A stretch of 36,852 nt of DNA from the NCBI GenBank assembly GCA_003158895.1, contig PMLO01000058.1, forward strand, positions 13,013-49,864, written 5' to 3'. Numbering within the stretch: position 1 is the stretch's first letter; the number at the start of each line of letters is the position of its first letter. Below, piece by piece: positions 7,769-36,811 of this stretch. Under the pieces are notes generated by a model. That model ran no database searches. It worked only from the letters and a program-made list of their open reading frames with translations, and had not been told where the DNA came from. The position numbers were made by a program, and so were the translations under genes. This stretch comes from Propionibacteriaceae bacterium (GTDB lineage Bacteria; Actinomycetota; Actinomycetes; Propionibacteriales; Propionibacteriaceae).

Positions 7769-9256
7769 GTGCCAGCAGACGACTTCAGCCTGTCCGATGA
7801 CGACCTCGTACGGCTCCGGGCCGCGCTCCGGGGCTACACGGTCGACGCCGTGGTCGAGGCCATCGGTGACGAGGGCCAGGCCGCTCTCGGTCGCAACCAC
7901 GCCGTCGCAGCGCAACGAGCGCTCGGGCGGCGGGACGACCCGATCGCAGCGCTGACAAGGCTGTTCATACTGCAGGATGCGGTTCCCGACGGCGTCGCGA
8001 GGCAGGCTCTCCCGCTCGAGGCGTTGTTGGCCGCGGGTGTGCTCGAACATGACGGCGATCAGTGGCGGGCGGTCGTGGACATCCGTCCGTACGGGTCCCC
8101 CGACGACGGCGCGGACGGCTGGCTCGTCAGCGATCACGCGGCGACGCTGGACACCGCGCGGGGCGCGCCTCGGGAAGACCACGTCCTCGGGGTCTCTCCG
8201 GCGTCGACCACGCTCGCGCAGCTGACGATCCGCCACCCCATCGGGCGCGCGCTCGACCTCGGCACCGGCTGCGGGGTGCAGTCGCTCCATCTCGCGCGGC
8301 ACGCGCAGTCGATCGTTGCGACCGACCTGAATCCGCGTGCGCTGCGACTCGCTGATCTGGGCCTTCGCCTCAGCGGAGTGAGCGCCGAGCTGAGACTGGG
8401 ATCTCTGTACGAACCGGCCGGCAACGACCCGTACGACCTCATCGTCACCAACCCGCCCTTCGTCATGTCGCCACCGTCATCCGCCCGGCTCACGTACCGC
8501 GAGGGCGACTTCACGGCCGACGGGCTCATGCGAGCGGTCGTCACCGGCGCGGTCGACCACCTGGCGCCTGGTGGCGTCCTTCACGTGCTCGGCAACTGGG
8601 CGCACGTCGCGGGCGGGCCGTGGGATGAACGACTCGGGAACTGGATCACCGACACGGGCTGCGACGCGCTCGTGATCCAGCGAGAGGTCCTCGACCCGTA
8701 CGAGTACGTCGAGATCTGGCTCGCCGATGCCGGGCTCGCGGGGACCCCGGGCTACAAGCAGGCGTACGAGACGTGGCTCGACTACTTCGACCACCTCGGC
8801 ATCACCGGCATCGGCATGGGCTGGATCACGCTCGTCAACGCGGCTCGCGAGGTGCCGGACGTACGGATCGAGGACTGGCCGCACGCGGTCGAGCAGCCGG
8901 TGGGGCCGGCACTCGCCGCGCACTTCGACGCCATCGACCCTGCTCATTGGCGTGATGACAAGGTCCTCGACTACGCCTGGCGGCTCGCCGATGATGTCGT
9001 GCAGGAGACACTCGGCGCCCCCGGCGCTGAGGACCCGACCCACATCGTCCTGCGTCAGCAGCGCGGACTCCGCCGCGCGATCGAGGTCGACACGGCGCTC
9101 GGCGGCGCACTCGGCGCATGCGACGGCGACCTCACCCTCCGCGAGATCCTCGGTGCGATCGCCCAGCTGCTCGATGTGCCGGCGAACGACCTCGTCGCCG
9201 ACGTGCTCCCGCGCTTCCGCCCCCTCGTCGCAGACGCCTGGTTCGCGACCACCTGA
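7769..9256 (+). CDS. SAM-dependent methyltransferase (HemK/RsmC-like small-domain methyltransferase)
   Basis: 'ALDLGTGCGVQSLHLARHA' motif I and 'DLIVTNPPFVMSP' NPPF motif in a 495-aa protein. Confidence 0.88.
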   Translation: MPADDFSLSDDDLVRLRAALRGYTVDAVVEAIGDEGQAALGRNHAVAAQRALGRRDDPIAALTRLFILQDAVPDGVARQALPLEALLAAGVLEHDGDQWRAVVDIRPYGSPDDGADGWLVSDHAATLDTARGAPREDHVLGVSPASTTLAQLTIRHPIGRALDLGTGCGVQSLHLARHAQSIVATDLNPRALRLADLGLRLSGVSAELRLGSLYEPAGNDPYDLIVTNPPFVMSPPSSARLTYREGDFTADGLMRAVVTGAVDHLAPGGVLHVLGNWAHVAGGPWDERLGNWITDTGCDALVIQREVLDPYEYVEIWLADAGLAGTPGYKQAYETWLDYFDHLGITGIGMGWITLVNAAREVPDVRIEDWPHAVEQPVGPALAAHFDAIDPAHWRDDKVLDYAWRLADDVVQETLGAPGAEDPTHIVLRQQRGLRRAIEVDTALGGALGACDGDLTLREILGAIAQLLDVPANDLVADVLPRFRPLVADAWFATT

Positions 9257-9543
9257 GGAGAGCACCTGTGCGCGCAAGGAGAGGAAGTATCCGCTCGGGG
9301 AGAGGATCTGTGCGCTGGGAGAGAACCTGTCCGGTCGAAAAGAGCATCTCGTGCACGCGCAAGAGGTCACCAGCTCCTCTCCCGGAGTGGATATCTCCTC
9401 TCCCCGAGTGGATATCTCCTCTCCCCGACTGGATATCTCCTCTCCCCAACACGCATGGGGTGTGTCGCGGGCAGTACGAGGTGTCTCGCGGGCAGTACGA
9501 GGTGTCTCGCCGAGCGGTGCAGGACCTCTCGCCGGGGGGTTTC
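9257..9543. repeat. Array of ~21-bp tandem repeats with inverted left/right halves upstream of topA
   Basis: GGAGAG-type units begin at 9257, 9278, 9299, 9318 with degenerate AAAGAG/CAAGAG at 9339, 9360; CTCCTCTCCC units at 9374, 9395, 9416, 9437; GTGT(C/G)TCGC-type units at 9460, 9481, 9502. Unit ggagaggaagtatccgctcgg is a near reverse complement of gagtggatatctcctctcccc. Confidence 0.85.
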
Positions 9544-9574: not shown

Positions 9575-9596
9575 TTTAGACGTTCTGGTCTACAGT
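9575..9596 (+). promoter_or_regulatory. Putative topA promoter -10 region with overlapping dyad TAGAC-N6-GTCTA
   Basis: TAGAC (9577-9581)/GTCTA (9588-9592) dyad overlapping TACAGT (9591-9596), about 30 bp before the topA start. Confidence 0.35.
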
Positions 9597-9620
9597 GACG
9601 ACGTTTCCGTACCCGAAGGA

Positions 9621-12392
9621 GTGCCAGTGGCTGGCCGCCGACTTGTGATCGTGGAGTCGCCTACAAAGGCGACCAAGATCGCTTCGTACCTCGGCGCGGG
9701 CTACGTCGTCGAGTCGAGCCGCGGGCACGTCCGCGACCTGCCGACGAGCGCCGGAGAGGTGCCGGACAAGTACAAGAAGGAGCCCTGGGCTCGTACCGGC
9801 ATCGACGTCGACCACGGCTTCGCCCCCCTCTATGTCGTCACCGCCGACAAGAAGGCGACGATCAAGCTCCTCAAGGCGAGACTGGCTGACGCCGACGAGC
9901 TCCTGCTCGCCACCGACGGTGACCGCGAGGGCGAGGCCATCGCGTGGCACCTGCTGCAGGAGCTCAAGCCGAAGGTCCCGGTCCAGAGGATGGTCTTCCA
10001 CGAGATCACCCCGCAGGCGATCGCGGACGCCGTCGCCAACACCCGCGACCTCGACACCGATCTCGTCGACGCGCAGGAGACCCGCCGGATCCTCGACCGG
10101 CTGTACGGCTACGAGGTCAGCCCGGTCCTGTGGCGCAAGGTGATGCCGCGCCTCTCGGCCGGTCGTGTCCAGTCGGTGGCAACACGACTCGTCGTCGACC
10201 GTGAGCGCGAACGCATCAGCTTCGTCGCCTCCTCGTACTGGGACGTCGACGCCACGCTCGACGCCGGTCCCACGGCCACCCCGAGCACGTTCACGGCCCG
10301 TCTGACGTCCGTTGGCGGTACGAGGGTGGCGCAGGGCCGCGACTTCACCCCAGCAGGCACCATGCGGGGCACGCTGGTCCACCTCGACCAGACCGCCGCC
10401 GAGACCGTCGCCACCGCAATCCGTGGCGCGAAGGTCACTGTGACAAGCGTCGACGCCAAGCCGTACACGCGCCGCCCGTACGCACCGTTCCGCACCACGA
10501 CGCTCCAGCAGGAGGCCGGCCGCAAGCTCGGCTTCACCGCACAGCGGACGATGTCGGTCGCGCAGGACCTGTACGAGGGTGGCTGGATCACCTACATGCG
10601 TACGGACTCCGTGACGCTGTCCGACACCGCGGTCGCCGCGGCGCGCGCCCAGGTGCTCGCCCTGTACGGACCGAGCTACCTCCCGGCGAAGCCCCGCGTC
10701 TACGCGTCGAAGGTCAAGAACGCCCAAGAGGCGCACGAGGCGATCCGTCCCGCCGGCGAGGTCTTCGCGACCCCTGCCGAGACCGGGCTGAACGGCGATC
10801 AGCGCCGACTGTACGAGCTGGTCTGGATGCGTACGGTCGCCTCCCAGATGAACGACGCCACCGGCGAGTCCATGTCCGTACAGATCGCCGCCACCCACGC
10901 CGCAGTGCAGGTGCTTGGCAACCCGATCACCGAGTGCACGCTCACGGCATCCGGCCGTACGATCACGTTCCCGGGCTTCCTCAAGGCGTACGTCGAGGCG
11001 CACGACGACCCCGACGAGACCTCGGACGACTCCCAGGCCCGGCTTCCGCAGCTGGCCGCCGGCAAGGGACTGGACGTTCTCGACGTCGTCCCCGCCGGCC
11101 ATGAGACGCGGCCGCCGGCCCGCTACACCGAGCCGAGCCTCGTGGCCAAGCTCGAGGAGCTCGAGATCGGCCGCCCGAGCACGTACGCGTCGATCCTCCG
11201 TACGATCACCAGCCGCGACTACGTGTTCAAGAAGGGCTCGGCCCTCGTACCGACCTGGCTCGCGTTCGCGGTGACTCGTCTGCTCGAGGAGCATTTCGGA
11301 CACCTCGTCGACTACGCGTTCACCGCCGACATGGAGCAGACGCTCGACGAGATCGCCAACGGCGGCGCCGACCGGAAGGCCGTGCTCAGCGACTTCTACT
11401 TCGGCGGCGCGGGCGAGGGTGCCGACGAGGGCCTCCGTGACGCGGTCTCCGAGCTCGGCGATATCGACGCGCGCGCCCTGTCGAGCTTCCCGGTCCCCGG
11501 AGACCCCGACATCACGATCCGCGTCGGCCGCTACGGCACCTACATCGAGACCACCGACGGGCGCCGCGCGAACGTGGCAGAGGACCTGCCGCCCGACGAG
11601 CTCACCGCCGACCACGCCCACCAGCTGCTCGACGCACCGGTCACGGTTGAACGCGAGCTCGGCACCACCCCCGACACGAACCTGCCGGTCGTCGCGAAGG
11701 ACGGCCGCTACGGCCCGTACGTCACCGAGGTCCTCGGAGAGGACGCCCCGAAGAACGCCAAGGCGCGTACGGGGTCGCTGTTCAAGTCGATGTCGATCGA
11801 CACGGTGACTCTGGAGGACGCGATGCGGCTTCTGAGCCTCCCGCGCACCGTCGGCGAGGCTGACGGCGAGCCGATCACGGCCCAGAACGGCCGCTACGGC
11901 CCGTACCTCAAGAAGGGCGCCGACTCCCGCTCGCTGACGACCGAGGACCAGATCTTCGACGTGACGCTCGACGAGGCCCTCGCGATCTATGCGCAGCCCA
12001 AGCTGCGGGGCCGGGCTGCTGCCGCCGCGCCGCTCAAGGAGCTCGGCAACGACCCCACGACCGGCACGCCGATGGTCGTCAAGAGCGGCCGCTTCGGACC
12101 GTACGTCACCGACGGTACGACCAACGCGACGCTCCGCAAGGACGACGACGTCGACGACCTGACGCCCGAACGCGCCGCCGAGCTGCTCGCCGAGAAGCGC
12201 GCCAAGGGGCCGGCGCCCAAGAAGACGCCAGTGCGTCGTGCGGCTCCGGCGAAGAAGGCAGTCGCGACGAAGGCGGCCGCGCCGAAGACGACCACGGTGA
12301 AGAAGCCGGCGGCCGCGAAGAAGGCCACGACAGCCAAGAAGCCACCCGCCCTCACCGCGCGCACGGTCTCGGCCCGGGCCAAGAAGAGCTGA
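9621..12392 (+). CDS. topA: DNA topoisomerase I
   Basis: 'RRLVIVESPTKATKIASYLG', 'ATDGDREGEAIAWHL', 'ITYMRTDSVTLS', 'HEAIRPA', repeated 'GRYGPY' C-terminal modules, Lys/Ala-rich tail. Confidence 0.97.
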   Translation: MPVAGRRLVIVESPTKATKIASYLGAGYVVESSRGHVRDLPTSAGEVPDKYKKEPWARTGIDVDHGFAPLYVVTADKKATIKLLKARLADADELLLATDGDREGEAIAWHLLQELKPKVPVQRMVFHEITPQAIADAVANTRDLDTDLVDAQETRRILDRLYGYEVSPVLWRKVMPRLSAGRVQSVATRLVVDRERERISFVASSYWDVDATLDAGPTATPSTFTARLTSVGGTRVAQGRDFTPAGTMRGTLVHLDQTAAETVATAIRGAKVTVTSVDAKPYTRRPYAPFRTTTLQQEAGRKLGFTAQRTMSVAQDLYEGGWITYMRTDSVTLSDTAVAAARAQVLALYGPSYLPAKPRVYASKVKNAQEAHEAIRPAGEVFATPAETGLNGDQRRLYELVWMRTVASQMNDATGESMSVQIAATHAAVQVLGNPITECTLTASGRTITFPGFLKAYVEAHDDPDETSDDSQARLPQLAAGKGLDVLDVVPAGHETRPPARYTEPSLVAKLEELEIGRPSTYASILRTITSRDYVFKKGSALVPTWLAFAVTRLLEEHFGHLVDYAFTADMEQTLDEIANGGADRKAVLSDFYFGGAGEGADEGLRDAVSELGDIDARALSSFPVPGDPDITIRVGRYGTYIETTDGRRANVAEDLPPDELTADHAHQLLDAPVTVERELGTTPDTNLPVVAKDGRYGPYVTEVLGEDAPKNAKARTGSLFKSMSIDTVTLEDAMRLLSLPRTVGEADGEPITAQNGRYGPYLKKGADSRSLTTEDQIFDVTLDEALAIYAQPKLRGRAAAAAPLKELGNDPTTGTPMVVKSGRFGPYVTDGTTNATLRKDDDVDDLTPERAAELLAEKRAKGPAPKKTPVRRAAPAKKAVATKAAAPKTTTVKKPAAAKKATTAKKPPALTARTVSARAKKS

Positions 12393-35326: not shown

Positions 35327-36811
35327 TCAGGAGTAGAGCTTGTCGTTCTTGCGGCGGAGGCGGCCGGTGTGGATGGCGCCGTCGAAGGCGACACGACCGC
35401 CACCGACGGTGGCGAACAGGATGCCGGCGCCGGTGAGGAGCACGTCGACGACTCCGATGAAGTCGGCTGCGCCCGGCTGGAACGGGCTGACGACACCCCA
35501 CTGCACGAACACGAGCAGGGCGATCGACAGGACCAGGAGCGCCAATCCGGCGATGCGCGTGCCGAGACCGATGACCAGCATGACCGCGATCGCGATCTCC
35601 AGCCCGATCTGCGTCCAGGCGATGATCCCGGGGCTCGGCACGATGGTCGCCGCCCACATGTCGCGGGTCGCGGTGAGGTGCGTGATGTGCTGCCAGGCCC
35701 GAATGCCGATCACCGCGGCGATGACCAGGCGGAACAACAGGAGGCCGAACGAAGGGAGCGCCTTGTACGTGCTGGGCGAGGCGAACTTGGAGACCAGCGG
35801 CTCGTCAGAGTCGTCGGGAGCGGCGATCACCTTGCCGAGCTGGCGGTCGCGGGCTGCGCGCTCCTCGCGACGTACGCGTGCCGCCTCTTGCGCGTCGAGG
35901 ACAGCTGTCTGCTCCACCGCCGGAGCGGCTCCGGCCACAGCGGCCGCGCCGAACGGCAGTGCCACCGTGGGAGCCTCGTCGCGGAACAGCGAACGCTGCG
36001 AACCGGTCGTCGCGGCCTCTGAGTCGACCGCATCCTGGGGAATCCCCTTCGCCTCCGGATGGACCTCAGCCCAAGAGGAGGGAGGCTCGATCGGATGGAT
36101 GCGGGTCGGCTCGTCGACCGAGCTCGACTCGACCTGGTCGGCGACCGGCTCGGTCTCGACCAGCACTGGCGCTACCGGCTCCGCGTCGACGACCACGGGC
36201 TCGGCCGCAGCGTGGGAGGGCATGAAGTCGTCAGCCTCGCTGACGCGTTCGGTGGCCACCGTCGTCGGAGCGGGCTCGCTGGGAGCGGGTACCACGGGGT
36301 GAGCGCTGAACTCGTCCGCCTCGTAGACGCGCTCGGGAGCGACCTCCGCCGCGTCGAGGGCCGGCTCGGTCGCAGGAACCTCGGCTGCAGCGGGCTCAAC
36401 CGCAGGCAGGACCTCGGTCGCAGCGGGCTCGGCTGGAGCAACCTCGGCCGCAACGGGCTCGACCGCAGGAACCTCGGTGGCTTCGGGCTGACCTGCGGCG
36501 GCGAAGGGGTCCCCGGCACCGTAATGGGACGACACATCGACGGGAGCGGCCTCGTTCCCCGGGAGCTTGGCTGCGACGGGGGTGTCCAGTGGTGTGTCCA
36601 GCGCCTCCGCGTCGGGGACTACGCCCGTCACGGGCTCGGCAGCGTGCGTGCCCTCCTCGACCACCGGCGCGTCCTCGTTCGCCATGGGTGCGCGCTCCTC
36701 GGCGACCGGCGTCGCGGCAGGCTCGGGCGGCTCATCGGTGTGGGTGAACCACGAAATGGCGTCGTCTACGCGATCGCGCAGGGGGTGCGACTCGTCCGGT
36801 TGGTTCGTCAC
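35327..36811 (-). CDS. DoxX-family membrane protein with long acidic Pro/Ala/Glu/Val-rich N-terminal region
   Basis: C-terminal DoxX-like 'LLLFRLVIAAVIGIRAWQHI...TIVPSPGIIAWTQIGLEIAIAVMLVIGLGTRIAGLALLVLSIALLVFVQW'; N-terminal about 300 aa low complexity. Confidence 0.82.
   Translation of the reverse strand: MTNQPDESHPLRDRVDDAISWFTHTDEPPEPAATPVAEERAPMANEDAPVVEEGTHAAEPVTGVVPDAEALDTPLDTPVAAKLPGNEAAPVDVSSHYGAGDPFAAAGQPEATEVPAVEPVAAEVAPAEPAATEVLPAVEPAAAEVPATEPALDAAEVAPERVYEADEFSAHPVVPAPSEPAPTTVATERVSEADDFMPSHAAAEPVVVDAEPVAPVLVETEPVADQVESSSVDEPTRIHPIEPPSSWAEVHPEAKGIPQDAVDSEAATTGSQRSLFRDEAPTVALPFGAAAVAGAAPAVEQTAVLDAQEAARVRREERAARDRQLGKVIAAPDDSDEPLVSKFASPSTYKALPSFGLLLFRLVIAAVIGIRAWQHITHLTATRDMWAATIVPSPGIIAWTQIGLEIAIAVMLVIGLGTRIAGLALLVLSIALLVFVQWGVVSPFQPGAADFIGVVDVLLTGAGILFATVGGGRVAFDGAIHTGRLRRKNDKLYS

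Follow-up and report, generated by a model that had tools for sequence, protein, structure and literature searches.

Dispersed repeats in bacterial genomes are usually either palindromic, as REP elements are, or neutral-looking VNTRs. REPs need a stable hairpin to stall ribosomes. Among Actinobacteria, the mycobacterial MIRUs are tandem intergenic repeats directly adjoining stop codons, with open frames and with units of about 40–100 bp that are not helically phased. The REP, BIME and REPIN elements of Gammaproteobacteria are dispersed and intergenic, sit at the 3' ends of genes, often no more than 15–20 nt from the stop codon, and can form opposed pairs (PMC12306157); in E. coli, REPs lower translation when the stop codon is fewer than 16 nt away (PMC12306157). 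Genomes of marine Beggiatoaceae contain numerous short intergenic direct-repeat arrays of the heptamer TAACTGA, which lie in forward orientation shortly before start codons and were proposed to be regulator binding sites (PMC4679880).

The array at 9257–9543 of the window, by which we mean the whole analysed stretch of 36,852 nucleotides, belongs to a repeat family that resembles each of these systems in part. Like REP-type elements, the family is dispersed, intergenic and found at 3' ends (its arrays begin at a median distance of 13 bp behind the stop codon and are enriched between convergent genes), but its unit is a tandem direct repeat of 21–22 bp whose conserved core is not palindromic, its single-orientation arrays lack excess structure (median folding z −0.25 and −0.14 on the two strands), and its units have only a partial, species-dependent dyad. 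Mobilisation as a REP by a RAYT transposase was rejected, as PF01797 (Y1_Tnp) was found in none of the seven genomes of the genus, with control genomes positive. As in MIRUs, the arrays are tandem and intergenic, abut stops and show open frames, and as in MIRU/VNTR loci their copy number differs between orthologous sites of different species; they are set apart from mycobacterial MIRUs, by description, by the 21–22-bp unit instead of one of 40–100 bp, a 6-bp near-invariant core and confinement to one Propionibacteriaceae genus. They differ from the TAACTGA repeats in their longer unit and in following stop codons in either orientation. With arrayed operator sites on one helix face they share short recognition cores repeated at integral helical turns, although here tens of arrays per genome lie at gene ends, not at promoters or a single locus, and the binding protein is putative.

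The array between a methyltransferase gene and topA

The array is preceded by a methyltransferase gene (7769–9256, plus strand; DUF7059 and MTS class I, Pfam PF23186 and PF05175), whose TGA stop codon (9254–9256) abuts it at 9257, and followed by topA (9627–12392, plus strand; PF01131, PF13368 and PF01751), which likely starts at the GTG at 9627, judging from the ribosome-binding site GAAGGAG ahead of it. The 21-bp repeats reported in a preliminary description of this DNA were confirmed by TRF, which finds three arrays of 21-bp period at 9257–9324 (3.2 copies), 9374–9447 (3.5 copies, 96%) and 9459–9510 (2.5 copies, 96%). The left arm (9257–9361, plus strand), delineated from the sequence, TRF and PWM hits, consists of units in sense orientation, whose cores lie at 9257, 9278, 9299 and 9318, followed by a degenerate core AAAGAG at 9339; the single 19-bp step pointed out before is present, from 9299 to 9318. 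The right arm (9371–9448, minus strand), delineated by TRF (96%) and the inverted repeat I1/I2, is inverted with respect to the left one and comprises three full units of the type GGAGAGGAGATATCCACTCGG and part of a fourth. The inverted pair 9257–9310/9371–9424 extends over 54 nt with 74% complementarity, in agreement with the earlier remark that left units are near reverse complements of middle ones. Both strands of 9257–9543 accordingly fold more strongly than shuffles (z −6.9 and −4.4), as any inverted array would. The array edge (9449–9543, minus strand; TRF 9459–9510, 96%) contains diverged variant units of the GCGAGACACCTCGTACTGCCC type, and the edges of other arrays carry similar variants (GCGAGACACC..GTAC). 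Three unit families had been distinguished previously, but all are one unit rather than separate elements, found on the plus strand as the GGAGAG type (9257–9361) and again on the minus strand (9371–9448), the 'GTGTCTCGCGGGCAGTACGAG' family at 9449–9543 being a diverged minus-strand variant of the GGAGAG unit (GCGAGACACCTCGTACTGCCC).

The array ends ahead of a conserved block upstream of topA, GTTCTGGTCTACAGTGACGACGTTTCCGTACCCGAAGGA (9580–9620, plus strand), recognised from orthologous sequences. This block is nearly unchanged in the congeners for which the topA upstream region was fetched, while the adjoining array varies. It includes the −10-like hexamer TACAGT and is probably the topA promoter and leader.

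A genus-specific family with a conserved core

The array is a member of a dispersed intergenic repeat family and not a local feature. A search for further copies, as suggested earlier, gave 47 BLASTN matches on more than 20 contigs of the source assembly (3.59 Mb, 286 contigs), and the family is present in all seven genomes of the genus that were searched. A lack of other copies and of length variation, which the preliminary description named as counter-evidence, is not what is seen: copies are found genome-wide and array lengths differ between orthologous sites. A two-unit pattern is matched 85 times in G000 (the genome of the window), 84 times in G005, 30 in G001, 17 in G002, 13 in G006, 11 in G004 and twice in G003, all of these counts being minima, since the assemblies are in pieces and an array forms the end of several contigs (such as G000:C19, G005:C190 and G004:C154); the genomes are MAGs of 69–98% completeness. 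Six of the seven congeners have 15–158 matches each to the three-core pattern GGAGAG-N14-17-GGAGAG-N14-17-GGAGAG; G003 has no match to it but carries CGAGAG-type units at 22 bp. A 'reversed' pattern is not a valid null here, because it reads GAGAGG, which is contained in the same GGAGAG units.

BLASTN with the array found nothing in 51 relatives outside the genus (58 genomes searched in all). In the wider search the three-core pattern turned up sporadically and at low counts in 8 of 192 other genomes of the family and 12 of 394 other genomes of the class, and these matches, among those listed, look like unrelated local repeats; across these genomes the repeat family is essentially absent outside the genus. 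Carriage by phages or plasmids was rejected for lack of matches to the exact two-unit pattern in viral contigs and of any match in plasmids. No description of such a family was found in the literature searched, which lay mostly outside subscription journals.

Each unit is built from a 14-bp core with the consensus GAGAGNACCTGTNC, within which GGAGAG alone is near-invariant, and a 7- or 8-bp spacer. The consensus units are GGAGAGGAgcTaTcCgcgcga in G000, GGAGAGGACCTgTgCGCTCgg in G005, GGAGAGCACcTgTGCGggtgg in G001 and GGAGAGAACCTGGCcggtCcg in G006, with 22-bp versions in G003 (CGAGAGgACCTGTACgcGtCcG) and G002 (gGAGAGgtcTcgtacCCcTcgg), and comparison of these consensus units places the extra base of the 22-bp units in the spacer, not in the core. 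Two unit types occur in G002 (loci L193, L199 and L206), GAGAGGTCTSGTACCCCTCGG of 22 bp and CGAGAGAACTTGTGCGCTTGG of 21 bp. When distances between same-strand GAGAG motifs were tallied with no selection for any spacing, all seven genomes peaked at 21 or 22 bp, with harmonics at 42–44 bp, and spacings of 20 or 23 bp were nearly absent: G000 has 81 at 21 bp, 23 at 22 bp and two each at 20 and 23 bp, and G002 has 98 at 22 bp, 20 at 21 bp and again two each at 20 and 23 bp. The 22-bp period dominates in G002 and G003, and the 21-bp period in some other species.

Since selecting units by GAGAG makes the core look conserved by construction, conservation was measured on core pairs two periods apart, scoring the middle unit where the outer units agree. 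Core columns of the middle units were conserved in 411 of 415 cases (99.0%) against 89.7% elsewhere for the 21-bp units and in 471 of 475 cases (99.2%) against 90.0% elsewhere for the 22-bp units, with Fisher P values (6e-12 and 1e-13, respectively) that are indicative, as triples within one array are not independent. With the control anchors TACCC (22 bp) and TATCC (21 bp) the GGAGAG columns were again near 1.00, and with CCTGT and GCTCG their conservation was less clear, all four on smaller samples. Such conservation could in principle stem from an amplification process that needs GAGAG and not from a host function. Together with the genus-wide spacing of 21–22 bp, it makes phased protein binding the best supported of the three ideas put forward in the preliminary description, whose interpretation overall is partly supported.

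Location behind stop codons and turnover at orthologous sites

Gene positions were taken from our own simple codon-usage gene finder, as no curated annotation exists, and arrays of G000, G005 and G002 were taken partly from loci picked for their hits and partly from loci picked blindly; the blindly sampled loci of G000 and G005 contained few strong arrays. The 73 intergenic arrays with both neighbours lie much closer to adjacent stop codons (quartiles 7–36 bp around the median of 13 bp) than to start codons (median 92 bp, quartiles 75–140). Convergent gene pairs hold 27 of them (37%), compared with a baseline of 179 in 1149 (16%; P 1e-5), and divergent pairs hold six, which is not a clear depletion (P 0.10). 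Between tandem genes, 31 of 40 arrays are nearer to the upstream stop (P 7e-4). The commonest distance between the stop codon, counted from its first base, and the start of the first core is 10–11 nt (16 of 53 sense-first ends). The unit nearest the stop is sense in 51 cases and antisense in 28, so that orientation is weakly biased and there is no strict polarity. Predicted genes overlap 10 of 99 arrays; about half of these are two-core pairs, which could be chance, and the rest may be gene-call errors. Where arms are opposed, the order '><' is commoner than '<>' (16 versus 5). In one orthologous pair (L039 2861–3030 and L060 1147–1310) two species both keep the '<>' order, which shows that the order of the arms can be conserved.

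Of 17 G005 arrays, at least 7 occupy a site that also holds an array in G000, the arrays of both genomes having been found by motif and not by orthology; we estimate that random placement among more than 1000 intergenic gaps would give less than one such coincidence. The flanking proteins at shared sites are ~70–95% identical across species. In the methyltransferase–topA gap, arrays are found in G000, G001, G002, G004 and at locus L009, with at least one core, at a contig end, in G003; G006 keeps scattered cores, and in G005, where none of note is left, the array has been lost. Therefore no single array looks indispensable. Copy number and orientation differ between orthologous sites, and outside GGAGAG orthologous arrays are no closer to each other than non-orthologous ones (likeness 0.56 versus 0.57). 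Thus array positions and cores persist at shared sites while the unit sequence turns over.

The long RNA hairpin suggested previously applies only to a minority of arrays: 23 arrays with both orientations fold very strongly (median z −7.9 and −7.0 on the two strands), whereas the 43 single-orientation arrays, as given above, do not. RNA hairpins thus characterise some of the arrays and are not what unites the family, and the unstructured single-orientation arrays argue for an action on DNA rather than RNA. A hairpin within the unit was also considered and rejected, since an imperfect palindrome is present in some species but is not kept in G001, G003 and G006. The G005 consensus unit is ~60% complementary about a centre at 10.5, and covariation across the dyad, notable in G002 only (z 5), is lower in G005, at z 3.2. 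Intrinsic terminators, defined by a hairpin followed by a U-tract, were likewise rejected: a T5/A5 run was found near one of 72 arrays, and otherwise no U-tracts were seen. Searches for known RNAs in Rfam gave only sub-threshold matches to miRNA precursors (26–29 bits versus gathering scores of 94–168), look-alikes that any long hairpin would produce.

A proposed role as protein-bound gene boundaries, and alternative explanations

What could be the role of these arrays? We propose, with a probability of roughly 45%, that the array at 9257–9543 is one of many genus-specific, helically phased binding-site arrays for a putative protein marking the 3' ends of genes. The recognition core would be GGAGAG (extended approximately to GAGAGNACCTGTNC), repeated every two helix turns. 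Since 21–22 bp correspond to two turns of DNA, neighbouring cores lie on the same face of the molecule, and a non-palindromic core repeated at this distance, whatever the strand or the transcript structure, fits a protein coating one helix face. Such a sequence-specific DNA-binding protein might coat arrays cooperatively, covering the gap between the stop codon of a gene and the next promoter. That arrays lie after stops and between convergent genes points to a role as boundary or roadblock: the coated array would form a boundary between transcription units, which may slow or stop read-through and convergent transcription or, alternatively, may anchor nucleoid or supercoil domains. A more specific version is a system of transcription-unit boundary elements common to the genus, in which one candidate protein polymerises on phased GGAGAG sites behind stops all over the genome and each species has adjusted the spacing (21 versus 22 bp) and the flanking bases; it appears rather unlikely to us as it stands.

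The main rival, which we regard as a real possibility, is a dispersed MIRU/VNTR- or REP-like repeat that has no host function. It would spread by slippage, recombination or an undescribed mobiliser, GAGAG would serve the amplifying process and not the host, and copies would survive mainly where they are harmless, just after stops and away from promoters. The arrays do lie where insertions are tolerated, they vary freely in copy number, orientation and unit sequence from one orthologous site to the next, and some are lost, as in G005 at the methyltransferase–topA site. Such a repeat is harder to reconcile with cores far better conserved than spacers, with sites persisting between species whose flanking proteins have diverged to ~70–95% identity, and with spacing confined to 21–22 bp where neutral indels should scatter it; the Y1_Tnp/RAYT transposase is also missing from all seven genomes. 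Strong folding of the opposed arrays, the excess of '><' over '<>' order and the enrichment between convergent genes would all be expected if the arrays were bidirectional RNA terminators or 3'-end stabilising hairpins, the opposed arms making a long stem in either convergent transcript. We consider this improbable, however, because about two thirds of the arrays are in a single orientation and without excess structure, T5/A5 runs are as rare as described, and it is the core that is conserved rather than compensating pairs, with covariation notable in one species and weaker in a second.

The narrow post-stop position (median 13 bp, mode 10–11 nt) is also where translational regulators of the REP kind would act, stalling terminating ribosomes from no more than ~15 nt past the stop; this is in our opinion very improbable, since REP stalling requires a stable hairpin, which the single-orientation arrays do not form, and the mechanism has no need of a long multi-unit array. 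Least credible, and rejected here, is that the array encodes a heptapeptide-repeat peptide, as raised in the preliminary description, or a C-terminal extension. All three forward frames are indeed open across 9257–9543 (five of six in total), but this is unremarkable because 51% of random 21-mers of like composition leave three forward frames open when tandemly repeated. Codon scores at 9257–9543 are negative in all frames (−0.38 to −0.75 per codon; +0.27 and +0.42 in the flanking genes), two ORFs through the array have no Pfam match, arrays follow stops in either orientation, and the period of 22 bp dominant in G002 and G003 means that as a family the unit is not under coding constraint.

Binding-site arrays at gene ends, if the binding protein exists, would be a directly testable case of protein-coated gene boundaries in an actinobacterium of high GC content whose array sites show no U-tract terminators; otherwise the family would be a clear case of a core-constrained tandem repeat with no obvious mobiliser. 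It is unusual in its short, non-palindromic constrained core, two-turn spacing, post-stop position, persistent sites and restriction to one genus.

Some minor observations concern resemblances and neighbours of the arrays. The units carry TRTNC, which we take to be the middle of the DnaA box, with the following ACA mostly missing. Outside the genus the two-unit pattern matches mostly 23S rRNA (GAGAAGAGCTGTCCTTAGTACGAGAGGA): the sarcin-ricin region of other family members (L102–L120) fits it with one mismatch at 21-bp spacing. An origin of the repeat from this region was set aside as unconvincing, the profile score being 4.7 against null 3-kb maxima with 90% at −3.6 and a maximum of 15 (64 windows). 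Near the end of the window a 30-bp repeat (36363–36477, 3.7 copies) lies within a minus-strand ORF (35327–36811) and encodes a low-complexity stretch rich in Ala, Pro and Glu. Another array of the family, made up of seven units, is found on the contig of the window ~3.5 kb before the window start (L050, G000:C43:9384–9530), and it has orthologous arrays in G001 and G002.
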